A stretch of 55,609 nucleotides of DNA from Ktedonobacterales bacterium. GTDB taxonomy: Bacteria > Chloroflexota > Ktedonobacteria > Ktedonobacterales > DATBGS01. Location of the stretch: the NCBI GenBank assembly GCA_036557285.1, contig DATBHW010000002.1:1-55609 (forward strand), read 5' to 3'. Below the pieces are notes generated by a model. The model worked only from the letters and a program-made list of their open reading frames with translations, ran no database searches and was not told where the DNA came from. How positions within the stretch are numbered: position 1 is the first letter of the stretch; every line of letters starts with the position of its first letter. This document shows positions 31,209 through 55,609 of the stretch, piece after piece. Both the position numbers and the translations under genes were made by a program.

Positions 31209-31314
31209 AACCTACTCTTGATAGCCCGGCATGCTACACTAACGTTTAAACGAAAGGCACAGCTCGTGCGCAGATGCCCATACCGCCGTCGTCTCGTGGA
31301 GAATCTATCAGCCT

Positions 31315-32247: not shown

Positions 32248-32299
32248 TATCGTTCTCCAGGCTTTGGCATGTATTGTTGAAATGCCGGGTGAGAAGATA

Positions 32300-32839: not shown

Positions 32840-32920
32840 CGGTGTTCACCTGCCCCTTTCCTTGCAGTTCCAAGAAAAAGCACCCAGGCTATCTACAACT
32901 GCTGAAGAAAACTGGCGAGC

Positions 32921-34279: not shown

Positions 34280-34326
34280 GAAGCGCCTCATCAATCATTA
34301 TTCAACGACGGCAGGACTTCGGCGCG

Positions 34327-34380
34327 TGTACCGCCGTCTCGGCGGCTTTTCGTACCGCCGCCGTCTCGGCGGCCAACCGC
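34327..34380. repeat. Family B repeats, two units
   Basis: TACCGCCGTCTCGGCGG followed about 10 bases later by TACCGCCGCCGTCTCGGCGG and CCAACCGCTCGCC. Both units can form hairpins. They lie between the decarboxylase gene and the PaiB-like gene. Confidence 0.65.
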
Positions 34381-34452
34381 TCGCCAGCGCAAACGCCCCC
34401 CTTCAGCCCAACGTTCCGACAGCCTACCGTTTCGCCGCTAGGGACGGTGACG

Positions 34453-35085: not shown

Positions 35086-35144
35086 AACTCGTTGACCCCT
35101 TCTATTATCGAACCATTATCGCCTGCGCCGCCGTCCCTGACGAC

Positions 35145-36203
35145 TCACTTTGCAGCGTTCCCTAAGATGTTAAGCGCCACGCGATGAGCAGCGCGCTGCG
35201 TCGAGATACCCTCTGCTCTGGCAATCTCCAGCATCCGCTTGATCGTGTAATAAATCTGGGCCGTTTGCGCGCGGGCCTTGTTCTCATCGTAGCCATCTAG
35301 CTCGCTCGCCACATTGATCAAGCCGCCTGAATTGATCACGTAGTCCACCGCGTAGACAATAGCGCGCGCGTGCAGCGCCTCGGCGTGGCGCTCCTCTTCA
35401 AGCTGATTATTCGCGCTGCCGGCCACAATCCGGCATGCCAGGCGCGGAATAGTCCGATCATTCATCACCGCGCCCATCGCGCAGGGAGCAAAAATCTCAC
35501 AGGGTACATCATAGATCGCCTGCGGCTCTACCACCTCAATCTTCAGCCGGTTTCTGGCCTCCTCAACCACCTGGGGACGCACATCCGAACCAATCACCGC
35601 CGCGCCCTCGCGCGCCAGCAGTTCCGCCAGGCCCATACCCACCTTGCCCAACCCCTGGATGGCGACGCGCACCCCCGCAAGCGTATCGCGCCCAAGCACA
35701 TCCTCAACCAACGCCCTCATCCCGCACAACACCCCAAACGCCGTCATCGGCGAAGGATCACCGCTGCCGCCCTCCTCAATGGGCGTACCCATCACAAAAC
35801 GAGTCGAACGCCGCGCCTGCGCCATATCTTCCGGCGTTGTGCCAACATCCTCAGCCGTAATATAGCGGCCACCCAATGCCTCGATATAGCGGCCCAGTAC
35901 CCGGAACCGCGCCGCGCGCAGCGACGCATCCTGCTCGTTGCCATCGGCCAGAATCACCGTTTTGCCACCGCCCAGCGGCAGACCGGCCAGCGCCGCTTTA
36001 TACGTCATCCCTTCCGAAAGGCGCAGCACATCCAGCAAAGCATCCTGTGGGCTGTCGTAATGCCACAGCCGCGAGCCGCCCACCGCTGGCCCTCGCCTGG
36101 TGTTATGCAGAGCAATAAAAGCGCGTAAGCCCGTTTCATCATCGAAATAACTTACGACCTGTTCGTGCTTGTGTTCGACGCTGAACGCAACCGGGTCAAT
36201 CAT
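35145..36203 (-). CDS. Leucine/branched-chain amino acid dehydrogenase
   Basis: A 352-residue Glu/Leu/Phe/Val dehydrogenase. GPAVGGSRLWHY, LSEGMTYKAALAGLPLGGGKTVI (catalytic Lys region), TAEDVGTTPEDM and the NAD-binding GLGKVGMGLAELL are present. The length and APCAMGAVMN, AGSANNQL point to leucine or phenylalanine dehydrogenase rather than glutamate dehydrogenase. It reversibly deaminates the amino acid to the 2-oxo acid with NAD. The ATG at 36203 follows GGGAG. It lies 73 bp after the nitrilase gene on the same strand. Confidence 0.9.
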   Translation of the reverse strand: MIDPVAFSVEHKHEQVVSYFDDETGLRAFIALHNTRRGPAVGGSRLWHYDSPQDALLDVLRLSEGMTYKAALAGLPLGGGKTVILADGNEQDASLRAARFRVLGRYIEALGGRYITAEDVGTTPEDMAQARRSTRFVMGTPIEEGGSGDPSPMTAFGVLCGMRALVEDVLGRDTLAGVRVAIQGLGKVGMGLAELLAREGAAVIGSDVRPQVVEEARNRLKIEVVEPQAIYDVPCEIFAPCAMGAVMNDRTIPRLACRIVAGSANNQLEEERHAEALHARAIVYAVDYVINSGGLINVASELDGYDENKARAQTAQIYYTIKRMLEIARAEGISTQRAAHRVALNILGNAAK

Positions 36204-36276
36204 ACAAACTCCCTTTTTTGAGGACAACACGCGCCCATCGCGCGCTATATCATCAAATCGGCTCGACAGACTTCAG

Positions 36277-37290
36277 CTATTCATCCTCCTGATACGTAGA
36301 CGCTTGCCGCGCGTCGGCAACCTGCCAGATCACATCCGGCATCTGTTTTATCGGCGAGCCATCCCCAATCTGAAGCGGGATGCTTACTCCCTCAACCGCC
36401 AGATCAAACACATCGGCGCGCCCATAATGCCCTACCGCATCAAAGCCACGCCGCGCCAGCAGCGCCTGGGCAGGCGCGGCATCAGCCAGCAAGATTGTCT
36501 CTGTCCCATGCGCCGGACCAGCCACAATATTCCCCAGCGGATCAACAATCACGCTGTCGCCCGGATTGATAACCTCCCCTGGCGCGTACACGCCCAGCGC
36601 CGCCAGATCGCGCGGTAGATCAGTCTCGCGCAGCAGGATACCCACACTCACCACCCACATACGGCCCTCAGTGGCAATGTGGCGCACAGACGCCAGCCAG
36701 CGTTCCCCATCATCCTGATTGGGGGCAACGTGAATCTGCTCGCCTTGCGCGTACAGTGTCGCGCGGGCCAGCGGCATATAATTCTCCCAGCAGATGAGGC
36801 CGCCCAGAATGCCATGCTCAGTCTCAATCGTGCGCAGCGTCGTCCCGTCCCCCACGCCCCACACGACCCGCTCAGCAAACGTCGGAACCATTTTGCGGTG
36901 CCGCCCAAGAATGGACCCATCCGCCCCAAAATACAGCAGCGTATTATAGAGCGTTCCAGACCGCGCCGGGCGCTCAGTAACGCCGATAGCCGCCATCATG
37001 TGATGCTTGCGGCACGCCTCAGCAATCAGATCGGTTTCTGGCCCCGGCACAGTAATCGCCTGCTCCAGAAAACGCCGCTGAAACGTCGCAAACGGCTCGG
37101 CGCTGGGGCTGGACGTTCGGGCAGCGACACGCCAGGCCCAATCGGGATACCCCGGAATATACGACTCCGAGAACACTGCCAGCCATGCCCCGGCCTCAGC
37201 CGCCTCCGCGATATGCTCAGCGGCGCGCCTGGCCGTCGCCAGTGCATCACAATAAACTGGCGGCGATTGAACAGCTGCAACGAGTCCCAT
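36277..37290 (-). CDS. Nitrilase-type carbon-nitrogen hydrolase
   Basis: A 337-residue nitrilase-superfamily enzyme; the triad is present at Glu (FSESYIPGYP, residue 42), Lys (HRKMVPT, about 133) and Cys (GLICWENYMPLAR, about 167). CWENYMPLAR and the FSESYIPGYP block are typical of true nitrilases, which turn nitriles into acids and ammonia. The ATG at 37290 is used; a TTG one codon earlier also opens the frame. It sits in a close series with a GNAT gene and leucine dehydrogenase, suggesting a nitrogen-scavenging unit. Confidence 0.9.
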   Translation of the reverse strand: MGLVAAVQSPPVYCDALATARRAAEHIAEAAEAGAWLAVFSESYIPGYPDWAWRVAARTSSPSAEPFATFQRRFLEQAITVPGPETDLIAEACRKHHMMAAIGVTERPARSGTLYNTLLYFGADGSILGRHRKMVPTFAERVVWGVGDGTTLRTIETEHGILGGLICWENYMPLARATLYAQGEQIHVAPNQDDGERWLASVRHIATEGRMWVVSVGILLRETDLPRDLAALGVYAPGEVINPGDSVIVDPLGNIVAGPAHGTETILLADAAPAQALLARRGFDAVGHYGRADVFDLAVEGVSIPLQIGDGSPIKQMPDVIWQVADARQASTYQEDE

Positions 37291-37315
37291 CAAGTACCCC
37301 TATCTCAACAAGGTT

Positions 37316-37786
37316 TTAAGAATCTAAGGCCAATTCGAGATACAGCGTCCCCTCAATCGGGTTATAGACATACGGCTCGATCTCCTTGAAGCCCAGCGAG
37401 CGATATAGCTCCCGTGCCTCCTGCATCAAAGGCAGCGTATCCAGGCGCAAACGACTATAGCCAATCACCCGCGCCTCGGCGATAATCGCCAGCGCCAGCC
37501 CTCTGCCAACACCCCTGCCGCGAAACGTTGGCCGCAGGTAGAGCCGCTTCATCTCCCCCACGTCAGCATTGAGCCTTCGCAGCGCCACACACCCTACCGC
37601 CTCCCCGCCCTCTTCGGCTATAAGAAGCCTTCCCTCCGGCGGCGCGTATTTCCCTGGTAGTTCCGCAAGCTCCCGCTCAAAGTCCTGAAAGCACAGATCG
37701 ACCCCCAGCGAAGCCGCGTATTCCAGAAAGAGTTCGCGGACCCGCCCTATCTCCTGCTCGGATTGCGCCCGAACGATCCTGAGCAT
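37316..37786 (-). CDS. GNAT acetyltransferase
   Basis: A 156-residue single-domain [31 protein letters not shown] gives the acetyl-CoA loop R-G-R-G-V-G, and [21 protein letters not shown] is the C-terminal block. The ATG at 37786 has AGAGG about 9 bases upstream; a GTG at 37810 overlapping the pdxS stop is an alternative. The acceptor is unknown. It lies where pdxT would be expected after pdxS. Confidence 0.88.
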
Positions 37787-37809
37787 ACCTTCAGCGCCTC
37801 TGCTGCGCA

Positions 37810-38721
37810 CTACCAGCCGCGCGCAGCCATCAATTCGGTTGGGGGCAGCGTCTTCACATCCAGGCCGCGCATCGGCTCGCCCAACCCACGCGACACCTCC
37901 GCCAGAATCTGCGCATCGCGGAAATGCGTCGTCGCCTTCACAATCGCCTTGCCCCGGCGCAGCGGGTCTTCCGACTTGAAGATGCCAGAGCCGACAAACA
38001 CACCATCGGCCCCCAGCCGCATCACCAGCGCCGCATCCGCCGGAGTCGCCACGCCGCCCGCGCAGAACATCACTACCGGCAGCCGCCCCAACTCGCGCAC
38101 CTCGCGCACCAATTCATAGGGCGCACCCAGGTTCTTCGCCTCCGCCATCAACTCTTCTTCAGGCAGCCCCTGAATCTTGCGGATGCCATCGGTAATGGCC
38201 CGCAAGTGGCGCACTGCCTCAACGATATTGCCGGTTCCGGCCTCGCCCTTGCTGCGAATCATCGCCGCGCCCTCGCCAATCCGGCGCAGCGCCTCGCCCA
38301 GATCGCGCGCCCCGCACACAAAGGGGATCGTAAAAGCGCGCTTGTTCACATGAAATGCTTCATCGGCTGGCGTCAGCACCTCGGACTCATCAATACAATC
38401 AATGCCAAGCGCCTGAAGAATCTCCGCCTCGACAAAATGTCCGATGCGGCACTTCGCCATCACCGGAATAGTCACCGCTTGCTTGATTCCCGATACTAAC
38501 TCAGGATCGCTCATGCGCGCCACGCCGCCCTGCGCGCGAATGTCGGCAGGCACACGCTCCAGCGCCATCACTGCCGACGCGCCCGCCTCCTCAGCAATCT
38601 TCGCCTGGTCGGGCGTCACCACATCCATAATGACGCCGCCCTTGAGCATTTCAGGGAAAGCCCGCTTGACTTTCTCTGTGCCAACCTGTTTTCCATTCTG
38701 CTGAGCATGATTCTGTGCCAT
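37810..38721 (-). CDS. pdxS: Pyridoxal 5'-phosphate synthase, PdxS subunit
   Basis: A 303-residue (beta/alpha)8 enzyme that builds PLP from ribose 5-phosphate, glyceraldehyde 3-phosphate and ammonia supplied by Pdx[37 protein letters not shown] is nearly invariant. K90 (VMAKCRIGH) and K158 ([11 protein letters not shown]) correspond to the two catalytic lysines. GGAGGG lies 9 bases before the ATG. pdxT is not next to it; a GNAT gene follows instead. The preceding gene is a MocR regulator whose promoter has operator-like repeats. Confidence 0.96.
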
Positions 38722-38765
38722 TTACGTATTCCCTCCTCAAAACTACTGATGAGCAAAAATATCCG

Positions 38766-40439
38766 TTATACCAGTGGTCGCCGCGCCACCAGCGCCGGAG
38801 GGCGCTCCTCTCGACGCGCCCGACGAGTCAGTCGCTCCAGCGCGATGCCTATGCGCCTGGCCCCTTCCTCCAGCGAAGCCGCATCAGGGCCGGTAAAGTT
38901 CAAGCGCAAATGACGCTCTCCGCCCCCGCTGGCATAAAATGCATCCCCAGGCACAAACGCCACGCCCAGGCGCGCGGCTTCGTCCTGTGCATCGCGCGCC
39001 AGTAGCCCGCCCTCTAGGGCACACCAGAGATAATAGCCGCCCTCTGGCGTCTGCCAGCGCAGCAGCCCGCGCCCCGCCGTTTCCAACGCCCCCGCCAGCA
39101 GATCGCGCTTCTCACGATAGCGCCCGCGCACACGCGCCAGATGCGTATCCAGCACCCCCTCGCGCAGAAAGCCATCCAATGCTACCTGCGCCGGAGTATT
39201 GGCATGCAGATCGATATATTGACGCAAGAGACTCAACTGTGCAATCACCGGGCGCGGCGCGGCAATCCAGCCCAGACGCGCCCCAGGAAATAATATCTTC
39301 GAGCAGGTACCTAGATACAACGTCGAGCCGCTCTGATCCAGCGCCGACAATGAGGGCGGGGGCGCTTCCGAGTAAAACAGCTCCCCATAGGGATCATCTT
39401 CCAAAATCGGCGTTTGATAGTGCTGCGCCAACTCCAGCAGCGCGAGGCGGCGTCTCAAACCCATCGTCGTACCGCTCGGATTCTGGAACGTCGGCAGGCA
39501 GTAAATCAAGCGCGGGCGGTAGCGTTCCAGCGCCCCACGCAGGGCTTCTGGCTCCATACCTTCCTGATCGCAGGCAACCCCCACAGTACGCAGCCCTGCC
39601 GCCGCAAAGACACGCAGCGCGCCTAGGTAGGTTGGCGTCTCCACCAGCACCGTATCCCCTGGCGCCAGCAGCCCTCGCGCTACCAGCCAGAGACCCTGTT
39701 GCGAACCCGAAAGCACCATCAAATGCTCCGGCTCAAGCGGCATCCCCTGTCCGGCAGCCAATCCGCTCGCCTGGCGTAATTCCCGCCAGCGCCGGTTGAG
39801 CCAGGAGGCCAGCGAGGCGCGCAACGCTTCCAACCCCTCAATCGGGCAATGCTGAAGCAACTGGCCGCCGCTGGCGCGAAGCTCCGAAGTCAGCGCCGTA
39901 CAAAACTCATCTACTGGATAGAACGCGGGATCGGGCGTGCCAGCCGCTAGCGAGATCACATCAGCGCGCGAAGCCAGCGCAACTACGTCGGCCAGCAATG
40001 TATCGCCCTGACTGATTTCAGGCCGATTGACCAGAGGCGAAGATTGCAGCGCGCTCCCCAGGCCCATTTCTGTTGATGCGCTGATGCTCGTCTCCCGCAG
40101 ATACGCGGCCCAGGAAAAAGCACCGGGGAAGCTGGCGCTGTTCCCGCCAGCAAAACTGGCTTTCGTAGGGCTTCTGACTGGTTCGCTGGCAGCCTGCACA
40201 ATCGTTCCGCGCCCTACATGCGCGTGTACCAGACCAGCCGCAGCGAGATCACCATACGCACGAACCACCGTCGTTCGGTTGACATGCAACCGATCTGCCA
40301 GTTCGCGCTCAGGCGGAAGCCGCGTGCCAGCGCTCAAATCGCCGCGCCGGATCAACAGGGCTAAACGCTCACGAATCTGGATATAGAGCGGCGCGGCATG
40401 CGGCCCGCGATCAAGTTCAATCGGCAGGGAGTGATTCAT
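38766..40439 (-). CDS. pdxR: MocR/PdxR-type regulator (GntR helix-turn-helix plus aminotransferase domain)
   Basis: A 557-residue protein. Residues about 18-85 are a GntR winged helix (YIQIRERLALLIRRGDLSAGTRLPPERELADRLHVNRTTVVRAYGDL). A linker longer than usual (about 90-170) leads to a fold-type I aminotransferase-like domain with the PLP Lys in GTCSKILFPGARLG. PdxR members sense PLP and control pdxS/pdxT. Position 44 bp before pdxS on the same strand supports that role. The ATG at 40439 has GGAG close upstream; a TTG precedes it. The promoter carries three direct repeats. Confidence 0.85.
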   Translation of the reverse strand: MNHSLPIELDRGPHAAPLYIQIRERLALLIRRGDLSAGTRLPPERELADRLHVNRTTVVRAYGDLAAAGLVHAHVGRGTIVQAASEPVRSPTKASFAGGNSASFPGAFSWAAYLRETSISASTEMGLGSALQSSPLVNRPEISQGDTLLADVVALASRADVISLAAGTPDPAFYPVDEFCTALTSELRASGGQLLQHCPIEGLEALRASLASWLNRRWRELRQASGLAAGQGMPLEPEHLMVLSGSQQGLWLVARGLLAPGDTVLVETPTYLGALRVFAAAGLRTVGVACDQEGMEPEALRGALERYRPRLIYCLPTFQNPSGTTMGLRRRLALLELAQHYQTPILEDDPYGELFYSEAPPPSLSALDQSGSTLYLGTCSKILFPGARLGWIAAPRPVIAQLSLLRQYIDLHANTPAQVALDGFLREGVLDTHLARVRGRYREKRDLLAGALETAGRGLLRWQTPEGGYYLWCALEGGLLARDAQDEAARLGVAFVPGDAFYASGGGERHLRLNFTGPDAASLEEGARRIGIALERLTRRARREERPPALVARRPLV

Positions 40440-40482
40440 CAACTCCTATCCCCTTTTAGCATAAAGCAGCGACTCTTCCCTT

Positions 40483-40510
40483 ATTGTATCCATCCAATAG
40501 GAAAAGTCAA
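40483..40510 (-). promoter_or_regulatory. pdxR promoter
   Basis: On the minus strand, TTGACT (40505-40510) and TACAAT (40483-40488) are 16 bases apart. Transcription would start about 35 bases before the ATG at 40439. Confidence 0.65.
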
Positions 40511-42163: not shown

Positions 42164-42181
42164 TGGTCTTATGTAAGACCA
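42164..42181. promoter_or_regulatory. parS-like/operator palindrome downstream of rep
   Basis: TGGTCTTATGTAAGACCA: 8-bp perfect arms around TG. It is the same sequence as the two sites upstream of parA (47215-47278), about 20 bases past the rep stop. Confidence 0.6.
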
Positions 42182-42201
42182 GCCGGTCATTAGTTCCTGA
42201 C

Positions 42202-44313
42202 TCAGTGCGCCTCATTGGCCGCAGCCTGAACCTGTTCAATCACCTCTTGAGGTACGAAAACAAATCGGGCGTGATCAAAGAAGCGACTCAAGAGTTTGCT
42301 GATCAATTCATTGATGTCACGCGCCAGCGCCATACTGGTGAAGCGAACGGTGTAGCTAGAACTCCCAAGCAGCGCCAGTTCACGGGGGTTCGTCGGGTTC
42401 CAGGCTGGCACCAGAGAATCGAGATGCTGGCGGCGGGCTGTATTCAGGCCAGGCCGCAGCGCATCGCGCACAAATCCCCAGAGCATTTGCACATCGCGGT
42501 TCTGGCGGCCATCACGCGTGCCTTCCGCATCAGGCACAAAACGGCTGAGCTGTCCCGTCCATTCAGGATCATCAACCAGCTCGGTAAACAAATCACCACC
42601 AGACTCTGCCTCGATGTCAACCTCTCCATCCCGCTCCAGCGCCGAAGTTACCTCGCTCTCGCGGCCAACAGCGCCGCTGAGAACGACTGTACCCAATTCA
42701 ACCCCCAGATCATCTTGAAGATCAATAAGATCGCGCAAATGGCCGCGCTCATCCATCAGCAGTTTGCAGTTCACCTGAATTTCAAAGCTATCATCAGGCT
42801 TACGAGGAATCTCCCCATGACCATAGATGACACCTGCCACGCGTAATTTCTCCAGAGCTTTCATGAGCGAATTACGCTGTAAGGTCACATTAGCCGTCGT
42901 GATGCCAGCCCGCTCCAGCGCCGTTTTGCGGCGCAGGCGCACCAGCACATACCCTTCTGGCGGTGGCACAGTCTGGTTACTCGCGCGCATCTCTTGCAAG
43001 CGATAGTGCGCATACAACAGGAGCCGTCGGCGCAACCGCTCGCGGGTCGCATGATGCTGAGCATGTCCGCGGCCAGGCTGAAGCCGCTCGGCTGGCACAT
43101 AATCTGTACCAGGGCGGCCATCAAGCTGCCGCACTCCCGTATACCAGCCAAGCGCTACCTTCACATGCGAAGGCGCGCGCCTGCGGCCCTCCGGGTTATC
43201 CCTGTGGGGATACGTGCCGCCGAAGAGGAAGACCAGGGGGCGCTCAATCGTATCATCGGCAATCGTTCCGTCGGGGTGGCGAATAGTACGCACAATTTCC
43301 AGCGAGACCGCTGAAAGCGCCCGCATCGTATTCCAGAAATCCGCGCGCGCCTCGCTCCGATGATACTCGCGGGCTGCGCCATCCGCATCCACTTTGACCT
43401 CTGGTTTGCGCCCCAATTTGGTCAGAAAGGCATTGACATCGAGATTGAAGAGTGGGGACCGCCAACAATCATTTGCGGCTTCATATAACCCCAGCATAAT
43501 CTTGGCTGCCCATTCCCCAACCATCATCAAAGCCACATCAACCGCAGTCACCAGCAGGGCCTGCGTAGAAAGATCGGCAACGGCCACGCCCTCACGCTGA
43601 GCAGCCGATTCGATCTCATCTTGAATGCGATCTAGAGCGATCTCCAGGCGCATATCGCCCTTACGCGCTACCCATCGCTGACGACCAATGATTTCTCCTT
43701 TAGGCATAGGGCCAAGATGCAAATCGGCTTTGCGCGTATACAGGCCATCAACGGCAATCACTCCCCTGCGAGCTTCCATCAGAATGCGCGCGCGAAAACG
43801 ACGCTCCTCCTCAGGGTCATCGGCACGAGTACGAGGCACCACACCATAAAACTCAAGCAGGTCTCGTCCTGCGCCATCAGCATGCGCCTCCATCGTAGAG
43901 ACAGGCAAGGCAAGAACGGGCATGGAAGGTGGTAGTTGATTGGGCAACTCTGATAGCTCCGGGCTAGGGGGCCAGGGGGGAAACGGGAGATCCCAGAGTG
44001 AGGGTGCATCCAGCAATGGGTCGGTATCTTCGACCAGTTGCTCAACATCAGCTACTGTTTGTTCGAGATTCTGCCCTCTTTCGACTATAGGAACAGGCTT
44101 TCCTCCAACGGCCCCCCCTCGATCAACAGGCGCTGCTGCGCCCTCTCTCGGCGCAGTTTCAGAAAAGAGGGAAAGCGGCGCAGCCTCACGAGCACCCTGG
44201 CGTTTGCGTCGCCGTGAAGTCGGCGCCGACTTCACTCGCCAGGCTTTGCTTGCTGCCAACTGCTCGTGATCGCTTTGCGTTCCTTTTGTGTCGGACCTTG
44301 CACGCTGCTCCAT
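42202..44313 (-). CDS. Replication initiator-like protein (Rep) with DnaA domain I-like C-terminus
   Basis: A 703-residue protein; I recognise no exact family. Residues 1-140 are disordered and basic. The middle (about 145-530) is charged, with a winged-helix-like segment (RRKTALERAGITTANVTLQRNSLMKALEKLRVAGVIYG). An acidic linker (about 560-600) leads to residues 608-690 (MLWGFVRDALRPGLN..., RELALLGSSSYTVRF, ALARDINELISKLLSRFF), which follow the pattern of DnaA domain I, the DnaB and regulator contact domain. Iterons lie against its ribosome site (AAAGGGGG) and in the block beyond, and parAB is upstream. Role as initiator of this origin is inferred from that context. Confidence 0.65.
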   Translation of the reverse strand: MEQRARSDTKGTQSDHEQLAASKAWRVKSAPTSRRRKRQGAREAAPLSLFSETAPREGAAAPVDRGGAVGGKPVPIVERGQNLEQTVADVEQLVEDTDPLLDAPSLWDLPFPPWPPSPELSELPNQLPPSMPVLALPVSTMEAHADGAGRDLLEFYGVVPRTRADDPEEERRFRARILMEARRGVIAVDGLYTRKADLHLGPMPKGEIIGRQRWVARKGDMRLEIALDRIQDEIESAAQREGVAVADLSTQALLVTAVDVALMMVGEWAAKIMLGLYEAANDCWRSPLFNLDVNAFLTKLGRKPEVKVDADGAAREYHRSEARADFWNTMRALSAVSLEIVRTIRHPDGTIADDTIERPLVFLFGGTYPHRDNPEGRRRAPSHVKVALGWYTGVRQLDGRPGTDYVPAERLQPGRGHAQHHATRERLRRRLLLYAHYRLQEMRASNQTVPPPEGYVLVRLRRKTALERAGITTANVTLQRNSLMKALEKLRVAGVIYGHGEIPRKPDDSFEIQVNCKLLMDERGHLRDLIDLQDDLGVELGTVVLSGAVGRESEVTSALERDGEVDIEAESGGDLFTELVDDPEWTGQLSRFVPDAEGTRDGRQNRDVQMLWGFVRDALRPGLNTARRQHLDSLVPAWNPTNPRELALLGSSSYTVRFTSMALARDINELISKLLSRFFDHARFVFVPQEVIEQVQAAANEAH

Positions 44314-44323
44314 ACGATCCCCC

Positions 44324-44458
44324 TTTCGCGGGTAGGGCTAAAGATTTTCGCGGGTAGGGCTAAAGAAGACGCCCCGGAGATCACTTTGATCATCCGGGGC
44401 GTCTGAAATCACTACTTCGTTTTTGCATGGCGTAAAGTTTTTCGTGGGTAGCGATAAA
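44324..44458 (-). repeat. Three inverted iterons over the rep leader
   Basis: TTTAGCCCTACCCGCGAAA on the minus strand at 44324-44342 and 44346-44364 (22 bases apart), plus a degenerate copy at 44440-44458. The first copy ends directly against the rep ribosome site. Rep bound here could repress its own gene or pair with the main block, as iteron plasmids do by handcuffing. Confidence 0.85.
44368..44403 (-). terminator. Terminator-like attenuator in the rep leader
   Basis: On the minus strand GACGCCCCGG and CCGGGGCGTC form a perfect 10-bp stem, continued by GATCA/TGATC around a short loop, and are followed by TTCTTT. This lies 55 bases before the rep ATG, so transcripts starting further upstream could be stopped before rep. 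Confidence 0.6.
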
Positions 44459-44680
44459 GGCAGGGAATGGTTCAGAACGATTTAGTTACGTCAGGTATGT
44501 ACCTGCGGGCATCGAAGAACTCACTCTCAGCCAAAGTTCCCACATTGCAAGAGCTAAGAGAAACAACGCTGCGCATTGGAAGATGCGATTACAAGTATAC
44601 CATGTAGAAAAAGAGAAAGCAATGAGCTATTACTTTTGTACTTTGGCTCATGCTGCCCGGAGAAGGTCATGAGGCTTCTA

Positions 44681-44775
44681 TATTTTTTCTTCTTTCTCTC
44701 TTTTCCTCCAGCCTTTTGTATACAAGAGATTTATTATACAAGTAATTACTATACAAAATATATTACTATACAGAG
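44681..44775. other. AT-rich probable duplex-unwinding element with TATACA repeats
   Basis: This is the most AT-rich stretch in the window, with a pyrimidine run (about 44680-44706) and then TATACA at 44719, 44735, 44750 and 44767 (spacings 16, 15, 17). It lies about 60 bases from the main iteron block. Short repeats in an AT-rich tract next to iterons are typical of the melting region of an origin. Confidence 0.65.
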
Positions 44776-44830
44776 GGCGCGAGGGTGGGCGTGAAACCAA
44801 TTGTAGCCTGACACCGCGCGTTCTATCAAA

Positions 44831-45184
44831 TTTAGTCCTACCCGCGAAAGAAATTTAGTCCTACCCACGAAAAAAGAGCCACTTTCTTTAGTGCTACCCG
44901 CGAAAAGAAGGCTTTTCCCTTTAGTGCTACCCGCGAAAATCTTTAGTCCTACCCGCGAAAGGAACGGCGTCTTCTTTAGCCCTACCCGCGAAAATCTTTA
45001 GTCCTACCCGCGAAAGCAAAAGAAAAACCAATCGGCTATTTAGTGCTACCCGCGAAAGCGCAGGAAAATCAGCGCAAATGAGCATATAATGAGGAAAATC
45101 TTTAGTGCTACCCGCGAAAATCTTTAGTGCTACCCGCGAAAGGGGGTTTCGCAGGCGCTTTTCCCTTTAGTGCTACCCGCGAAA
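44831..45184 (+). repeat. Main iteron block, eleven 19-bp direct repeats (origin of replication)
   Basis: Copies of TTTAGTGCTACCCGCGAAA or TTTAGTCCTACCCGCGAAA start at 44831, 44854, 44887, 44920, 44942, 44975, 44997, 45039, 45101, 45123 and 45166. The second has CCCACG, and the sixth has TTTAGCCC. Spacings of 23, 33, 33, 22, 33, 22, 42, 62, 22 and 43 are close to whole helical turns. With the adjacent AT-rich tract, rep and parAB, this is very probably a replication origin. Confidence 0.88.
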
Positions 45185-45214
45185 CCCCCTGGAAAGCCAG
45201 ATGCCGGAGAGCAG

Positions 45215-46201
45215 TTAACTGAGATCGCTTGCCCAGTCGAAAACACTTGAATACAACTGCTCTAAAGCTCCCCGCAGTTCTTGTCGATCAATTCGTGTAT
45301 CGTTGGCAAGCAACTCGATGGTGCGGAGGATGCGCTCGGTCTGCTGGCGGAGGCGGTCTATTCCTCGAACTGGCTCCCGCTGCTGGCGGAGTGGGGCATC
45401 GTTTGTCCCAATCACCTCGTCCTCATCATCAAAACCCGATTCATCCAACGTCGAATCATCCACATGAGCACTTTCCCCAGTCAAGCCCAGCGTGCGATCA
45501 ACAGCAGCTTTCGTTTCCTGGTAATTCAGGCCTTCATGAATAACTTTGCTCGTCGTCACCGCTCGCATGAAAGGGTCTTTGATCCGATCCAGTTCGCGGG
45601 CGTGGCTGGCTGAGAAGGTGTCCTCAGAGGTGGTACGCAATTTCTCTTTCAAGTCATCAGGGAGCATGGCCGTCTCGATGCGGTTGCGCACATAGCCTTT
45701 GCTTTTGCCCAGCCGCGCGGCAATGTCACGCTCGCTGAGGTTGAACTGTTCTTTGGCGCGCAGAATTGCCTCGCCCACTTCCAGTTGGGTCAGGTCGCGG
45801 CGTTGCTCGTTCTCCACCAGAGCGATATTGAACATATCCTCGTCGGAGAGATCCCGAATTTCCATCGGAATCTCTTCAAGCCCAGCCATCCTGGCTGCGC
45901 GCACCCGACGTTCGCCGTAAGCAAGTTCAATATGGCGATGTTGCCGACGTCCAAGCAGCGCGCCAAAGAAGCCCATGGATTTCATCACTTCGGCCAACTC
46001 CCCCAGCCCTATCTCATCAAAATCACGCCGGGGCTGAAAAGGGTTCGACTTAATCAGATCGATGGCTACCTTCTCAAGCGTTCTTTCTTCAGTTGCGGGT
46101 CCAGACCCCTTGGCAATTTCTGCCAAAATAGGAGAACCAACATTCAAGCCCAACTGATGCTTTGCTATATCGGTACTGAGACGCGCTCTCTGTTGCGGCA
46201 T
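45215..46201 (-). CDS. parB: ParB partition protein
   Basis: A 328-residue ParB/Spo0J-family protein that binds centromere sites and, as a CTP-dependent clamp, spreads on DNA. The CTP-binding motif GERR is at 96-99 (ELAYGERRVRAARMAG), the ENEQRRDLTQLEVGEAI block at 130-146, and an HTH at about 153-175 (NLSERDIAARLGKSKGYVRNR). A C-terminal helical dimerisation tail follows an acidic linker. GFFGALLGRRQHRHIELA replaces the more usual GLLQPI motif. It starts 6 bases after parA and ends 30 bases before the iteron block. Confidence 0.92.
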   Translation of the reverse strand: MPQQRARLSTDIAKHQLGLNVGSPILAEIAKGSGPATEERTLEKVAIDLIKSNPFQPRRDFDEIGLGELAEVMKSMGFFGALLGRRQHRHIELAYGERRVRAARMAGLEEIPMEIRDLSDEDMFNIALVENEQRRDLTQLEVGEAILRAKEQFNLSERDIAARLGKSKGYVRNRIETAMLPDDLKEKLRTTSEDTFSASHARELDRIKDPFMRAVTTSKVIHEGLNYQETKAAVDRTLGLTGESAHVDDSTLDESGFDDEDEVIGTNDAPLRQQREPVRGIDRLRQQTERILRTIELLANDTRIDRQELRGALEQLYSSVFDWASDLS

Positions 46202-46207
46202 GTGTCG

Positions 46208-47056
46208 TTATCCCTTCTGATGGCCGACTGCTTTAACGGCTGAGATAGCAGGAAGCCTCCCGCATTCACGCTCAACTTCTTCTGCAAGCTGTCGATAGGC
46301 GACAGAAACATTGGCGGTGGTATCGTAAGCGAGCACACTTTGAGCGACAATAGGCGCTTCTTTCAAGCGCACATTGCTTTTGATGACCGAGTTATAAATT
46401 GGCACCTGGCCGAGCAATGATTCGCGGGTAGAGGAGATTACATCGCGGCTGTGGACGGTCCGTGTATCGGCCATCGTCAGCAAGACGCCGCCGACCTTCA
46501 AGCCCTTGTTAATACGCTTGACGGTCTGGATTGTTTTGAGAAGCAGCCCCACGCCCTTCATCGCCAGATATTCCGTCTGCATGGGGATAATGACGGTATT
46601 GGCGGCGGCCAGCGCGTTCACAGTTAAAATGCCCAGCGATGGGAGGCAATCAATCAAGATATAATCATAGCTGTGCCGCGCTGGTTCCAGCAGATCCGTT
46701 AGGATCAATTCACCAAGCTGGGCGTGATACAGGTCAAGCTCGGCCTGGCAAAGCCCAATGTTTGCTGGCGCAAGATTGGGGCCAATCGCGGTGTGAAGAA
46801 TCACATCCTCCAGACGTGGCACTTGCTCATCGCGTGTGGAAGCCATAAGCGCGTCGTAGATAGTCTGCTCTAGATCTTCAGGGTTGACGCCCATCGCTAT
46901 CGTAAGGCTGGCTTGGGGATCCCAATCAACGAGCAAGACACGCCGCCCGCGTTCATGTAAGGCTGCTCCTAGATTTAAGGTGGTGGTGGTTTTGCCAACC
47001 CCACCCTTCTGATTGGCGATGGCATAAACTACACCGTTCGCTTCTGTGGTGGACAT
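46208..47056 (-). CDS. parA: ParA partition ATPase
   Basis: A 282-residue deviant Walker A ATPase. KGGVGKTTT (17-25), VLLVDWDPQASLTIAMG and DYILIDCLPSLGILTVNAL are the family blocks. It binds DNA non-specifically in the ATP form and moves ParB-bound centromeres. The ATG at 47056 is preferred because family N-termini begin just before VYAIANQKGG; the frame is open to 47107. There is no N-terminal HTH, so it is the short (type Ib or chromosomal) form. It is the first gene of parA-parB. Confidence 0.94.
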   Translation of the reverse strand: MSTTEANGVVYAIANQKGGVGKTTTTLNLGAALHERGRRVLLVDWDPQASLTIAMGVNPEDLEQTIYDALMASTRDEQVPRLEDVILHTAIGPNLAPANIGLCQAELDLYHAQLGELILTDLLEPARHSYDYILIDCLPSLGILTVNALAAANTVIIPMQTEYLAMKGVGLLLKTIQTVKRINKGLKVGGVLLTMADTRTVHSRDVISSTRESLLGQVPIYNSVIKSNVRLKEAPIVAQSVLAYDTTANVSVAYRQLAEEVERECGRLPAISAVKAVGHQKG

Positions 47057-47378
47057 AGGGCATGAACCCTCTCTATGACGGAATGGCTCCGCCAGCATGT
47101 CGCGCATCTATCAGGCGGCGAGATGTTCGTCAAGCCTCTGAAAGCCAGGTAGCACGCCTCAACGAAGCAAGAGCGTCTCCTGGCGACGGCGGATAGAGCA
47201 CCCGTTTGACGCTCAAGTGGTCTTACGTAAGACCACTTTGCTCTCAACATACTCAGGTGGTCTTATGTAAGACCGCCTCAACCTGAAGTTATGGTAGCAC
47301 ACGCTGATTGAAAGCACAAGAGAAAATGGAGCGTTTTTGCCAGAGATCAATCGCTCTTTGTTTCACTGGAACAAAAGA
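47057..47378. other. Regulatory region upstream of parA
   Basis: About 320 bp with no gene. It holds the paired palindromes at 47215-47278 and, at its far end, a half-match to the general bacterial parS (TGTTTCAC, 47359-47366). The parA promoter must be here, but no consensus boxes stand out. Confidence 0.5.
47215..47278. promoter_or_regulatory. Two palindromes 40 bp apart, probable parS or par operator
   Basis: The first (47215-47238) is a perfect 24-bp palindrome with core GTGGTCTTACGTAAGACCAC. The second (47255-47278) has core GTCTTATGTAAGAC and one arm mismatch. Centres are 40 bases apart, near four helical turns. The same sequence occurs downstream of rep at 42164-42181. Confidence 0.7.
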
Positions 47379-48392
47379 TCAGCCAGATTGAGTGGTTTCG
47401 CTCTCCTGCCCTCCTGATTGAATCATCGGCAGGGACATATCTTTGCCTATGGCCTGGTGGAGAGCATCTAAAGAACTGTACCCCGATTCCTCCAGTACCC
47501 TGAGCGTAGAGATATATTGGCGAGCGCCATGAGGCGTGGTCGTCGAAAGGAACGTTACCAACTCCGCTTCGATGAGCGCATGCAGCGGCTTTTCGCTGTC
47601 CACGCCGCGATAGCGTTCAATCGCTGCGCGGGTGATCGGTTGGTGCATGATCACTAATGCCAGCACCTCCCGTTGGGCCTGGGTAAGCTGTGTTTGCCTG
47701 CGAGGCGCCAGGCCAATGGCTGTCAGCGCAAGTCGCAGCGCAGGAGCGAAAGCTGCGTCCGAAGCAAGTTGATACTCCCCGTTCATCTCCTGAATGACTA
47801 CCCCATGCCCCATAAGATGCCCACGTAGCGCCTGGATGGTTTCTTCAACCTCAAATAATGCGCAATCTAAACCGGCAGCAAGCTGTGCAGCACTTAATCG
47901 TCCACAGATCAGCAGGAGCGCTTCTGCAACCTGCCAACGCTGCTGGGCTGTATGCGTTTCAGGTATTGATGCAGCCTCTCCTTCTCGGTGGTCATGAGTC
48001 GCTGTGATCGCCTGCTGGGTCAGCCCGCTACGCCAGGATGCCAGCGCCGTTCTCGATAATTGCACGCCCCCAGGCGCGGAAACATTAAGAGCTGCGCGCA
48101 GGGCATCAATCACCAGGCGTGTTGGATTCTTCGCATCAGGATCGCCACGTTCCAGCTTTGCCAGATAGCCAAAAGAAACGCCTGTGACCTCGGCCAACTG
48201 CTTCAATGTCAAGTCCAGATCGCGCCGACGCTGGCGAATCGCCTCCCCCCATCGCCGCATTTCCTTTGGGCTAATGATTTCTTGCTTGCTGGAAGGCGCA
48301 TCACCTGCGCTGCCTGGCCGCTGCTCACCGGAAAGCTCTCCTTGAGAGTGGAGCGCTTCTCCGGGGTCGCTTTGTTTCTGCTCTGGTTTCAT
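47379..48392 (-). CDS. XRE helix-turn-helix fused to an ScpB-like domain
   Basis: A 337-residue protein. After a disordered start, residues about 47-104 form an XRE HTH (AIRQRRRDLDLTLKQLAEVTGVSFGYLAKLERGDPDAKNP). Residues about 154-310 follow the ScpB plan of two winged helices: EALLLICGRLSAAQLAAGL, EVEETIQALRGHL, GEYQLASDAAFAP, then LTQAQREVLALVIMHQPITRAAIERYRGVDSEKPLHALIEAELV. ScpB is the kleisin-associated condensin subunit. A version with its own DNA-binding domain beside parAB could link condensin loading to this origin, or be a repressor; this is inference. Confidence 0.75.
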   Translation of the reverse strand: MKPEQKQSDPGEALHSQGELSGEQRPGSAGDAPSSKQEIISPKEMRRWGEAIRQRRRDLDLTLKQLAEVTGVSFGYLAKLERGDPDAKNPTRLVIDALRAALNVSAPGGVQLSRTALASWRSGLTQQAITATHDHREGEAASIPETHTAQQRWQVAEALLLICGRLSAAQLAAGLDCALFEVEETIQALRGHLMGHGVVIQEMNGEYQLASDAAFAPALRLALTAIGLAPRRQTQLTQAQREVLALVIMHQPITRAAIERYRGVDSEKPLHALIEAELVTFLSTTTPHGARQYISTLRVLEESGYSSLDALHQAIGKDMSLPMIQSGGQESETTQSG

Positions 48393-50525: not shown

Positions 50526-51341
50526 CTAGGGGAGCCAGGACCAGCAGGTATCTGCGTGAATGATGGGTTCTTCAGAGTCCTTTCTCTGGATGACCTGGGA
50601 CCAGGCCAGGCCATGAGGGTAGCTGCCGGTGCAGGTGGTGATGATCTCAAGGGTGTCGCCTGGGAGGGCGGGCTTCATATAGTCTATGACGCCGCGCTGC
50701 AAGAAGGCGCGCAGGTTGTGACGCTGTTCTGCGTGCTGGCCGATGAGGTCAACTGGAAGCTGAGCAAAGGCGCTGTGTATGGCTTCTTCCAGCCAATCAA
50801 TATAGATGGTGTTATTGATGTGTCCAACGATGTCAGCTTCGTAGCTGCGAGCTATCAGGCTCTGATGAAAGGTGGGCAGGGTGTCTCCTGGCGGCGTAAT
50901 GATGGGTAAGGCGGAAAACGTAACCGTTTGTGGGTCGGGGATAGCCTGTTCGGGTATCTCTGCCGGGAGCCGGATGGGCAAGCCGCGCTGCCGCCCGACA
51001 TAGACCCAATGGGCGCGAGCGCGGGCGAGAAGATGATCGCTGTTCTGGCTGGTGACGAGATATTCACGGTATGCCTGGATACGGGCGTATTGAGAAGGCC
51101 AGGTATCGAAGTTGAGTTCGTCGGTCAGCACGATAGGCTGGTCCACTTCGAGTGTCATCTGGCGGACTACCCAGGCGGAGTCCTGTTCGTCATACCAGGA
51201 GCGTGGAAAGCCTGCGGCGGCGGAGGCTTCGGTGGCGACATGTTCAAGATAGCGGAGCAAGGTTCCAGTTGAGATGATGCCGAGACGCCCAGTTTCATAG
51301 CTGCGAACGCCGAAAGAGGTATGATAATGGCTCAAACCCAT
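50526..51341 (-). CDS. Acyl-ACP thioesterase (double hotdog, FatA/FatB-like)
   Basis: A 271-residue protein with two hotdog halves. The first has SYETGRLGIISTGTLLRYLEHVATEAS and SAWVVRQMTLEVDQP. The second has SYEADIVGHINNTIYIDWLEEAI, which matches the catalytic Asn/His region of plant and bacterial FatA/FatB enzymes. It releases fatty acids from acyl carrier protein. GAGGAAAG lies about 8 bases before the ATG. It is separated from the convergent-to-divergent sedolisin gene by about 175 bp. Confidence 0.88.
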   Translation of the reverse strand: MGLSHYHTSFGVRSYETGRLGIISTGTLLRYLEHVATEASAAAGFPRSWYDEQDSAWVVRQMTLEVDQPIVLTDELNFDTWPSQYARIQAYREYLVTSQNSDHLLARARAHWVYVGRQRGLPIRLPAEIPEQAIPDPQTVTFSALPIITPPGDTLPTFHQSLIARSYEADIVGHINNTIYIDWLEEAIHSAFAQLPVDLIGQHAEQRHNLRAFLQRGVIDYMKPALPGDTLEIITTCTGSYPHGLAWSQVIQRKDSEEPIIHADTCWSWLP

Positions 51342-51516
51342 ATGACTTTCCTCAAAAGGTGAGACGTTTCCCTGCCAGAGTACGCTCTGGAGGGCGACCT
51401 GTCAAGGCTGCGGCGCGGGAAAATGGTCTGCCTCTAGCGCGGAAGGCCCATGTGCTGTATGATAGAAACCACGAGCATTCTGGCGTAGAGTATGACAAAG
51501 AAGGAAGAACTTCCAT

Positions 51517-53229
51517 ATGGCAGATAACGAGTATCCTCCCCCCTCACCCGATACGTTTCGTGAGTTTGGCGGCGCAGGGGGGTGGCCTTCACCACAGCCG
51601 CCACCGGCTGGCTACCCAACGCAGCCTCCAGTGGGGCCAGGCGGCGGGCCAGGATATTGGCAGCCAGGAACTATGCCGCCCCCTGGGCAGGGCAGCTATC
51701 CAGGCGCGCCAGGGCAGACGCCAGGCTTTGTTCCCAACCCGCCGCCACCCAGCAAGACTTCACCCTTTTTGATTATGGCGCTTGGTGGGCTGGCTTTGCT
51801 GGTCATTCTGGTTCCGCTGGTGCTGTATGCGCTGTCACGCGCGCCTGCCCCAACGACCAGAACTCCCCAGGCTACGGCGACACCAGGAGGGACCACACCT
51901 GCGCCGACGGGGACACCATCCTCATCAGGGTCGGCATTCAAGCCAGACGGTACCGCTCCAACGACCAGGCAGTGTAATACCGTCGTGGTGATTCCCTGCT
52001 ATAGCCCACAAGAGATGCAGCAAGCCTTTAGCTTGAATGCGCTTTATGCGCAAGGCTATGATGGCAAGGGCCAGACGATTGTGATTATTGCGGCGGGGAA
52101 TACGGATCATGTCGAAAAGGACTTGCAGGCGTTTGACAAAGCCTGGGGCTTGCCTGATCCGCCTAGCTTTAAGATTGTTCAACCGTTTGGGCCGCCTACC
52201 CCATACAAGTGCTCTGATTTTAATGACTTGGATGGCTTGCAGATTGAAACTGCGCTGGATGTGGAATGGAGCCATGCTATGGCTCCTGGCGCGAGTATTG
52301 TGGTGGTGGTTGGGCCAAACAAAGAACTGAAGTATTTCCCGGTACCCAAGAATGCGCCGTCATGCGGCCTGTATGATCTGGAAGACCCTGTTGCTTATGC
52401 GCTGGATAAGAAGCTGGGGAATATTATTTCCATCAGTTATGGCGGCAGCGAGTTGGGTACTCGTACCGATACGGCGGTTGACAAGACGAACGAGCAGAAG
52501 GAGTACGACGCGGCGCACGAGATTTTCAAGCGAGCGGCGAGCATGGGGGTTACGGTGATGGCGTCGTCTGGAGACAATGGGGCGACGAACCCAAATGATT
52601 ACGTGAATCATAATCTGTTTTGGGACAAGCCGAACGTCTCCTGGCCGGCTTCTGATCCCTATGTGCTGGCGATTGGTGGCACATCGCTGACTATTCAAGA
52701 TGAGAACGGGGTGTATGGGAGCGAGACCACCTGGAATAATAATGGCGGCTCGACAGGTGGTGGATTGAGCGCGCTGTATGGCGAGCCAGCGTATCAGAAG
52801 AATGTGCCAGATCAAGGGATGTTCCAGGGGAAACGGGGTCTTCCTGATCTGGCCTTCCCGGCAGATGTGAATTACCTGCTCTATGAAACGTCTGATTTTG
52901 GAACCATTGATGTATCCAAGTGGCCGCACTGGAACCTGATTGGTGGTACGAGCGCGAGTTCACCATGCTGGGCGGGGTTGATTGCGATTGCGGATCAGAT
53001 GAGTGCTCAGGCGGGCGGCGGGCCTCTTGGGTATATCCAGCCAGGGCTGTACAGCTTGAAGGGCCAGGCTTTCCATGATATTACAAAGGGCAATAACAAT
53101 TTTCAGCGCGTCGCGGGCTATGCGGCGGTGACTGGCTACGATCTGGTGACGGGTTGGGGTACGCCGATTGCAGATCAACTGTTGCCCGCGTTGATTCAAG
53201 CGGTGCAAACGGTTGGTAATACGCCTTAG
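51517..53229 (+). CDS. Membrane-anchored sedolisin (S53) peptidase without propeptide
   Basis: A 570-residue protein. A Pro/Gly-rich cytoplasmic-looking N-terminus (1-80), one transmembrane helix (about 82-106) and a Thr/Pro/Ser linker precede an S53 catalytic domain (about 155-565). Glu244 and Asp248 (ETALD), the oxyanion Asp353 (SSGDNG) and Ser479 (GGTSASSP) make the sedolisin set, and FHDITKGNN is the calcium site. The usual kumamolisin-type pro-domain is missing. Activity would lie outside the membrane. AAGGAAG lies about 10 bases before the ATG. Confidence 0.88.
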   Translation: MADNEYPPPSPDTFREFGGAGGWPSPQPPPAGYPTQPPVGPGGGPGYWQPGTMPPPGQGSYPGAPGQTPGFVPNPPPPSKTSPFLIMALGGLALLVILVPLVLYALSRAPAPTTRTPQATATPGGTTPAPTGTPSSSGSAFKPDGTAPTTRQCNTVVVIPCYSPQEMQQAFSLNALYAQGYDGKGQTIVIIAAGNTDHVEKDLQAFDKAWGLPDPPSFKIVQPFGPPTPYKCSDFNDLDGLQIETALDVEWSHAMAPGASIVVVVGPNKELKYFPVPKNAPSCGLYDLEDPVAYALDKKLGNIISISYGGSELGTRTDTAVDKTNEQKEYDAAHEIFKRAASMGVTVMASSGDNGATNPNDYVNHNLFWDKPNVSWPASDPYVLAIGGTSLTIQDENGVYGSETTWNNNGGSTGGGLSALYGEPAYQKNVPDQGMFQGKRGLPDLAFPADVNYLLYETSDFGTIDVSKWPHWNLIGGTSASSPCWAGLIAIADQMSAQAGGGPLGYIQPGLYSLKGQAFHDITKGNNNFQRVAGYAAVTGYDLVTGWGTPIADQLLPALIQAVQTVGNTP

Positions 53230-53244
53230 CCGCAAACAAGATAG

Positions 53245-53259
53245 GACGCCTGGGGCGTC
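53245..53259 (+). terminator. Small hairpin after the sedolisin gene
   Basis: GACGCC-tgg-GGCGTC followed by TCTC, about 15 bases past the stop. A weak candidate terminator. Confidence 0.35.
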
Positions 53260-53283
53260 TCTGACCCTGGAACAGGAGGCTGT

Positions 53284-53976
53284 ATGCCGATCCCTTCTCT
53301 GGCGTTTTTGATTGATGTGGATAATACGTTGCTCGATAACGATAAGGCGAAGGACGATCAGGCGGCGTATTTGCGCGATCTGCTGGGTGAGGCAGCGGCC
53401 TCCCGTTTTTGGGAATTATACGAGGAGGTGCGCCGGGAAGCGGATGTGGTTGATTATCCGCTGACGCTGGCGCGCTTTGCGCGTGAGTTTGCGGGGCAGT
53501 TTTCTGGTGAGAGGCTGTTCCAGCTTTCCAACTATTATCTGTCGTTTCCGTTTCGCGCGTATCTCTATCCAGAGGCTCTGGAGACGCTGGCGTATCTGCG
53601 AACGCTGGGGACGACGGCCATTACCTCGGATGGCGATGCGTCGTTTCAAGGCTTGAAGATTGTGCGAAGCGGTATATCGGCAGCGGTTCAGGGGCGGGTG
53701 GCGCTCTATCTGCACAAGGAAGAGCATGTTGATGAGATACGGGCGCTTTTTCCTGCTGAGCATTATGTGATGATTGACGATAAGCCGACCTTGCTCAGCG
53801 CGATGAAGTCTCGGATGGGGGAATCGCTTACGACGGTGCATGTGCGCCAGGGCAAATATGCGCGTGTGATGCCTGCGCGTGGCGAGCCGCCAGCAGACTT
53901 GTCAATAGCGACGATTCGTGAGGCGCGGCAAGCGCGTCGAGAGCAGTTCGAGGGGCAGGGAGCAAGCGCACGATAA
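53284..53976 (+). CDS. HAD-superfamily hydrolase
   Basis: A 230-residue HAD protein. Motif I is LIDVDNTLLDND (D11, D13), motif II is TAITSDGDA, the Lys of motif III lies in LYLHKEEH, and motif IV is YVMIDDKPTLLSAM. A helical cap lies between motifs I and II. It probably acts as a phosphatase on a small phosphorylated metabolite, unknown. GGAGG lies 5 bases before the ATG. Confidence 0.85.
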   Translation: MPIPSLAFLIDVDNTLLDNDKAKDDQAAYLRDLLGEAAASRFWELYEEVRREADVVDYPLTLARFAREFAGQFSGERLFQLSNYYLSFPFRAYLYPEALETLAYLRTLGTTAITSDGDASFQGLKIVRSGISAAVQGRVALYLHKEEHVDEIRALFPAEHYVMIDDKPTLLSAMKSRMGESLTTVHVRQGKYARVMPARGEPPADLSIATIREARQARREQFEGQGASAR

Positions 53977-54060
53977 GGGGAACTTCTGGCTGCGCTCTGG
54001 CGTCTCTTGTGTGAGGGTTTTGCTCAGGGGCAAGCCCTTGACATAATACAGGAGGGTGTT

Positions 54061-54564
54061 ATGCAGCACAGATTCTTCTTTCGTCGTTCTTTGTGGCTAA
54101 CGCCGGGTTTGCTTCTGGCCGCTGGGGTTTTGTTGGGTCTGGTGGCCTGCGCGCCTGGTGGCAGGAGCGCGGGCCAGAGTACGGCAGGTGGGAATGAGCC
54201 TCAGACTACGGCGAGCGCCACGGCAACGCCTACGCCTGGGCACGAGGATGCGGATCAGGGGACACTGAATGGTGATGTGGTGGCTGGCCCTACGTGTCCG
54301 GTAGCCACAGCGGAACAGCCATGCCCACCCAGGCCAGTGCCTGACCGCCAGGTAATGATTGTGACTCCTGGTGGGAAGGTGGCGGCCACGACGACGACTG
54401 ATAAGAATGGGCATTTCAGGGTTCTGCTTTCGCCAGGGAGGTATCTGGTGAAAGTTGCGCCTGTTCCCGGCGGGTACCCTGCGCAGCGAGAACCTGTAGA
54501 GGTGACAATTGCCGCCGGGCAGACTCTATCGGTGAAGATCGAGTTGGATACCGGGATTCGCTAA
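54061..54564 (+). CDS. Lipoprotein with carboxypeptidase-regulatory-like domain
   Basis: A 167-residue protein started at the ATG at 54061, just after AGGAGGG; the frame is open to 54007. The signal peptide ends in lipobox GLVAC. A low-complexity Thr/Ala/Pro linker leads to a small beta-sandwich (PDRQVMIVTPGGKVAATTTTDKNGHFRVLLSPGRYLVKVAP) like CarboxypepD_reg/SpaA modules. Likely a lipid-anchored surface protein; function unknown. It converges on the response regulator gene. Confidence 0.78.
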   Translation: MQHRFFFRRSLWLTPGLLLAAGVLLGLVACAPGGRSAGQSTAGGNEPQTTASATATPTPGHEDADQGTLNGDVVAGPTCPVATAEQPCPPRPVPDRQVMIVTPGGKVAATTTTDKNGHFRVLLSPGRYLVKVAPVPGGYPAQREPVEVTIAAGQTLSVKIELDTGIR

Positions 54565-54587
54565 ACGAGGCTGCGCCGGATGATACT

Positions 54588-55004
54588 CTATGGGCTGCTG
54601 GCCTGCTGGGCATGGCGCTTGACGAGCGCGTTGACGCGATCCAGCAGCACATCGAGATCAACAGGCTTGGAAAGGAAATCAACCCAGGGGTCGTTCAGTT
54701 TTGCCGCGCGAGCGGCGAGATCGTGAGCGGCGCTGACGATGAGGACCGGCAGCGTGCGAAAGCGTGGGTTAGCGCGCAGCGAGGCCAGGATGTCCCATCC
54801 GCTTTGCCCCGGCAGGCGCAGATCAAGCAGCAAGACTTCCGGGGGCGCTGTTTCTATGAGCGGCTCAACCAGTTCGGGCTGTGCTGCGGTGATGACGCGA
54901 AAGTCGGCTTCTTCTACGAGGATTGCTTTGAGGACTTCAAGCAACTCTACTTCATCATCAACAACCAGCGCCAGTTTGGGGTGATGGGTTGATACATGAG
55001 CCAT
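54588..55004 (-). CDS. Single-domain response regulator
   Basis: A 138-residue receiver domain alone, with no output domain. D16-D17, the phosphoacceptor D61 (LLLDLRLPGQSGWD), S91 and K113 (LSKPVD) are all present. The ATG at 55004 follows AAGGGAGG; the frame is open to 55163 but that part overlaps a repeat. It would act like CheY or Spo0F, passing phosphate in a relay or binding a partner. No histidine kinase gene is adjacent in the window. Confidence 0.92.
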   Translation of the reverse strand: MAHVSTHHPKLALVVDDEVELLEVLKAILVEEADFRVITAAQPELVEPLIETAPPEVLLLDLRLPGQSGWDILASLRANPRFRTLPVLIVSAAHDLAARAAKLNDPWVDFLSKPVDLDVLLDRVNALVKRHAQQASSP

Positions 55005-55130
55005 AACAACCTCCCTTCTGTTCCTCACAGCCTCGTCTATATTTCTCTTTGCATATTGCGGGCCAGCGGGGCGCGGGCTGTTACAGCCGCGCCTGCGCCC
55101 CGCTCTGGCGGCTGAAGGCCGCGCCTGCGG

Positions 55131-55205
55131 CGGCGGGCGCTTGCCTCGGCTGGGCCTCGGCACTCTCGCTCGCTGCGCTCGCTCGCGCGCCCGCGCCTGG
55201 AAGCT
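55131..55205. repeat. Family A repeat, divergent copy
   Basis: GCTTGCCTCGGCTGGGCCTC, then GCTCGCTCGCGCGCCCGC. The core is altered (GCTCGCTGCGCTCGC replaces the CCCGTTGG part). Complementary arms GCGGGCGC and GCGCCCGC flank it. Confidence 0.6.
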
Positions 55206-55467
55206 ACGTCGCCAGTCCGCCTGCGCGGACTCTCTGCCCCCAGGCGGCGCTACCAGTGGGGCTGCGGCTGACGGCCCGCTGACCAGACTTTGGCGGGAAA
55301 CGCGCGCCGCCCTGACGCGGCAGCAGGCGTGGCGCGCCCCCTGGGCTGGATGAAGAACGCGGGCGAGACCCGAAACGGATAGCGGTTTTCCAGCCAGGCT
55401 TTGGCCGGGAACGCGCGCGGCGGAAGGTTGTACCAGGGGATAGATGCGTGAGACGAGACCATGAGCG

Positions 55468-55609
55468 CCTCCCCTTTCCTGCCGACAAGCGGCGGAGAAA
55501 ATGGAACGACCACATCGGGGAACCCTGGCCCGGAGAGGCCGCAGGGTTCACAGATATGGTCGCTGGGGGGTCTGGCGGAGGGTCTCAATGGTACAATACT
55601 CCCCAGCCC
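55468..55609 (+). repeat. Family C structured element, second copy
   Basis: Matches 24947-25075 and runs to the window edge. Outer arms are CGACCACATC (55507-55516) and GATATGGTCG (55553-55562). Inner arms are GAACCCTG (55520-55527) and CAGGGTTC (55542-55549), different in sequence from the first copy but still paired. TGGTACAATA with CCCCAG closes it, so a gene may begin just beyond the window. Confidence 0.6.

Follow-up and report, generated by a model that had tools for sequence, protein, structure and literature searches.

A putative iteron-type replication origin with its own partition genes on a contig of a Ktedonobacterales (Chloroflexota) draft genome

Iteron plasmids of the RepE, pi and RK2 TrfA types carry iterons, some of them inverted at the rep promoter, together with an AT tract. 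For chromid origins, no more than two types have been distinguished, iteron and repABC, both known from work on proteobacteria; the iteron chromids described so far come only from beta- and gammaproteobacteria (PMC6090056). The chromosomal site crtS of Vibrio cholerae is bound by RctB and triggers the second origin; ChIP peaks containing iteron-like motifs have also been reported from the genome of this species (PMC11711613). Chromid-like replicons of 1.6-3.5 Mb are known from Ktedonobacteria; these have parA at the origin and lack both parB and a canonical Rep (PMC13289182).

The locus described here is from a Chloroflexota soil bacterium (Ktedonobacterales) with a draft genome of 5,115,258 bases in 82 contigs. 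The window (i.e., the whole stretch of DNA that was analyzed) is one contig, C2, in full (55,609 bp). A preliminary description had placed an origin block at 42164-48392, consisting of fourteen 19-bp iterons, an AT-rich tract, a 703-residue Rep-like protein, parB-parA, matching palindromes and an ScpB-like gene, on a stretch that also carries the housekeeping genes rsmI, pdxS, a class A PBP and pruA. All of these components were recovered (Table 1), the first housekeeping gene as an rsmI-type TP_methylase, the PBP as a PBP1A family gene, and the iterons as 13 exact copies and one degenerate copy. The reading that we favor, with a probability of a little under 0.6, is that this unclosed contig of a draft assembly represents a chromid-like second replicon with an iteron-type origin.

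Table 1. Features of the C2 module and two of the housekeeping genes on the same contig (window positions).
Feature	Position	Strand	Remarks
rsmI-type TP_methylase	25119-25838		housekeeping gene
pdxS	37810..38721	-	sole copy in genome; chromosomal in relatives
parS-like palindrome GGTCTTATGTAAGACC	42165..42180	.	left edge of module
Rep-like initiator, 703 aa, new family	42202..44313	-	ORF; assigned by iteron linkage
Inverted iteron pair	44324..44364 (starts 44324, 44346)	-	11-51 bp upstream of rep start codon
Degenerate 14th iteron	44440..44458	-	sequence search
AT-rich tract, candidate DNA unwinding element	about 44550..44800	.	61-64% AT vs ~40% for contig
Main array, 11 iterons	44831..45184	+	spacing mostly multiples of ~11 bp
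ParB, second in genome	45215..46201	-	ParB_N 3.1e-21
ParA	46208..47107	-	AAA_31 8.5e-55
Two parS-like palindromes upstream of parA	47219..47274 (starts 47219, 47259)	.	sequence search
HTH_3-ScpB fusion	47379..48392	-	HTH_3 + SMC_ScpB 6.6e-23

The 19-bp iteron is TTTAGYSCTACCCRCGAAA, and its copies lie between 44324 and 45184; fewer than 0.0001 exact copies would be expected genome-wide under a third-order Markov model. These repeats lie directly beside the initiator gene and adjoin the AT-rich tract, for which a role in unwinding is putative. The inverted iteron pair just ahead of rep is likely an operator through which Rep would repress its own synthesis. If the module is a working theta origin of plasmid descent, Rep would bind the iteron array and open the neighboring AT-rich tract, with forks departing both ways. 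DnaA boxes were not found at the module, which therefore lacks the box cluster of a DnaA-type oriC; the only box on the whole contig is at 53316, far from the iterons.

Rep could not be placed in a known Rep family. The protein has no match in Pfam or PHROG, and none among 72,556 plasmids and 50,697 phages, bearing out the earlier remark that it was not a recognizable type. The single PDB profile match, to a designed repeat protein, was disregarded. AlphaFold (AF2) models of Rep are of low confidence (mean pLDDT 40 and 49); their order of helices and strands is compatible with two winged helices, and Foldseek returned no match. A tandem winged-helix-like order is thus only weakly predicted for the core of the protein (residues 152-524). 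The unconfirmed fold, together with the lack of DnaA boxes at the module, counts against the favored reading.

Within the order, G002 and G004 are two genomes that encode relatives of Rep at 44-46% identity, and a search of the genome contigs with Rep returned nothing beyond these two. More distant relatives occur in two genomes of the same phylum (G094 and G299), and none were found in viral contigs. A position weight matrix built from the C2 iterons and then run on the rep loci of the relatives identified repeats directly upstream of rep in both G002 and G004, with the core TTTAG-YR-nn-MCCCRCGAA. Thus, Rep and the iterons are a co-conserved pair. The distant Chloroflexota genome G094 has a short contig (C222) on which ParB and a Rep relative are encoded together. 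Both the upstream iterons and this ParB-Rep pairing support a second replicon with an iteron-type origin. The rep copy of G004 lies in DNA without strong skew, so the Rep family is not always associated with a major origin. Also counting against the favored reading is the absence of Rep among genomes of the Ktedonobacteria family with published chromid-like replicons.

The palindrome GGTCTTAYGTAAGACC has three exact copies in the genome, all on C2 (42165, 47219 and 47259). Seven parS sites of the canonical type lie on another contig (C34:39289-43110). The genome thus has two ParABS systems with differing parS codes. ParA, ParB and their own palindromes would segregate the C2 DNA independently of the chromosomal ParABS. 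The block combines plasmid-type partition genes with a plasmid-type replication gene, the latter recognized by iteron linkage. Adjoining parAB is the HTH_3-fused ScpB domain protein, a paralogue of the ordinary ScpB on C11, which is the only other ScpB match in the genome. The role of this fusion protein may be to load condensin at the module or to adapt it there.

A search for dnaA and oriC elsewhere in the genome identified full-length dnaA (C45:5867-7732) and a DnaA-type oriC with 16 TTATCCACA boxes adjoining an AT-rich stretch (C34:80278-81025). A second DnaA homologue of equal match strength (C55:175866-176951, 361 aa) lacks the N-terminal part. Contig C40 carries the ribosomal-protein operon, gyrA and a chromosomal-type ParB. 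The preliminary description had considered either a chromid that gained core genes or a chromosome that starts from a Rep/iteron origin instead of dnaA-oriC. The first fits the data, as does the identification of an iteron/Rep/ParAB origin on DNA with housekeeping genes. The second would account for the strong skew switch at the module and for the presence of the single pdxS on C2, but is not supported and has become extremely improbable, given the full-length dnaA, the 16-box oriC, the seven canonical parS sites and the chromosomal ParB in the same genome. The location of these elements on other contigs, with the parS-like sites confined to C2, supports the favored reading.

The strand composition of C2 changes across the module, a feature that was not part of the preliminary description. 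In the left flank (1..40500) GC skew is ~-0.25, and minus- and plus-strand genes have third-position skews of -0.53 and -0.51, respectively. In the right flank (50526..55609) GC skew is +0.1 to +0.2, with third-position values of +0.29 and +0.40 for the two gene orientations. As third-position skew agrees on both strands, transcription is not its cause, and gene orientation was rejected as an explanation. The switch is the signature of a bidirectional origin, and the module has served as one. Between 40.5 and 50 kb, third-position skew is near zero and GC is lower, and the module may be younger than its flanks. The other -/+ switch that was identified is on C34, where it coincides with the canonical parS cluster; the 16-box DnaA cluster is 37 kb away and shows no sign change.

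False skew minima can arise from inversions, and the distance between the C34 switch and the DnaA boxes indicates that rearrangements do occur in this genome. The module could accordingly be a relic or a silent integrated plasmid, with the switch marking the edge of a chromosomal inversion, and the near-zero skew and lower GC of the block would suit a late arrival. We regard this as improbable, as all module genes are intact, the 13 iterons are nearly identical, and an inversion edge is unlikely to fall by chance within the 10-kb zone of the module.

Of the 1950 kb examined, 230 kb had strong skew (at least 0.15 per 5 kb), distributed over contigs C2, C34, C32, C1, C40, C38, C12, C36 and C64. 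Since strong skew occurs on many contigs, it does not discriminate between a second replicon and a second chromosomal origin. Outside this small part of the genome GC skew is ~0.05, and on C1 and C38 strong skew decays within tens of kb.

The GC content, tetranucleotides and a shared repeat family of C2 agree with those of the remaining contigs, so that contamination was rejected. Composition close to that of the chromosome is a chromid property, and so is the possession of a core gene that is chromosomal in relatives: C2 pdxS is 76-87% identical to the single-copy chromosomal pdxS of related genomes. Together these properties support a second replicon, which would be a separate molecule that now has the only pdxS of the genome. 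The origin thus adjoins genes that would be hard for the bacterium to lose, which points to a second chromosome or to an additional start site on the main one. The pdxS gene is part of a same-strand run (35145-38721) with genes for a GNAT protein, a nitrilase-like protein and a ScyB-like tryptophan dehydrogenase, adjoining a GntR/aminotransferase (MocR-type) regulator. Scans for tRNAs and Rfam families across the 55,609-nt window returned no matches.

C2 is not a closed plasmid, as its two ends do not overlap. It starts exactly with a perfect 58-bp palindrome (1-58), and the start of C11 is likewise palindromic (38 bp). Linear replicons with terminal inverted repeats have been reported in Ktedonobacteria. 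The C2 palindrome may represent either a telomere-like terminus or a break in the assembly; a hairpin telomere was rejected, as only one end of C2 is palindromic and C11 also starts in this way.

The principal alternative is that the module was inserted close to oriC in the main chromosome and serves there as a second origin, a situation known from naturally fused Vibrio cholerae strains. In three relatives (G033, G034 and G038) pdxS is located 41-59 kb from a DnaA-box cluster, and the PBP1A homologue of G034, at a distance of 24 kb from pdxS, is also near the chromosomal oriC. These locations argue against a separate replicon and are also compatible with chromosomal insertion, as is the strong skew common to C2 and C34. 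There is also precedent for two active origins on a fused Vibrio chromosome (NSCV1; PMC6284228). However, an independent ParABS with a different parS is just what a separate molecule would require, no contig in the assembly joins C2 and C34, and gene order is so poorly conserved among the compared genomes that ancestral position says little. We therefore consider integration rather unlikely, and the second replicon remains our preferred reading. The published chromid-like replicons of Ktedonobacteria (PMC13289182) lend it further support.

Iterons also occur outside the array. A whole-genome search identified three, where 0.004 were expected: one is exact (C76:56617), and the other two, at C45:41657, which is intergenic, and C81:94578, each deviate by a single mismatch. 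By analogy, these lone iterons are candidates for crtS-like sites; they may be timing or titration sites, relics, or part of the same replicon as C2. To our knowledge, an iteron-type second chromosome or second start site is undescribed in Chloroflexota. We speculate, as a doubtful extension, that a new family of iteron initiators drives a domesticated second chromosome or chromosomal origin in this phylum, with the single iterons of the main chromosome as crtS-like timing sites. If true, a replication checkpoint with such sites would have evolved independently of Vibrio. The C2 locus gives Ktedonobacteria a concrete initiator family, a putative binding site and a partition code, and the lone iterons make inter-replicon coordination testable outside Vibrio.

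Among known systems, iteron plasmids share with C2 the iterons, the AT tract and the inverted promoter iterons; they differ in that C2 Rep has no sequence match, no DnaA boxes were found at the C2 module and single-copy core genes are on the replicon. The order parA-parB-initiator on one strand is reminiscent of repABC replicons. Unlike these, C2 has an iteron array, a parB-rep gap of ~900 bp and no match to the RepC family, and assignment of the module to repABC was rejected. The chromid-like replicons resembling extrachromosomal elements (ECE) in Ktedonobacteria (PMC13289182) are from the same class, with ParA by a skew-defined origin and no canonical Rep by Pfam, but lack parB, and searches of that family's genomes did not recover C2 Rep. 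Vibrio ori2/RctB resembles C2 in having an iteron array by an AT-rich tract with a large initiator gene, initiator sites at the rep promoter, and an independent ParABS with a distinct parS. In both cases the replicon carries core genes, and lone initiator-like sites occur in other parts of the genome. Differences are that C2 Rep has no Pfam family, the iterons are 19 bp rather than the 12-mers of Vibrio, a second site type like the 29/39-mers was not identified on C2, an HTH-ScpB gene is added, and the organism belongs to another phylum. Judged by its genes and sites, the C2 module would function like the origin of an iteron chromid, but its initiator is new, and parB and an HTH-ScpB gene are also present.
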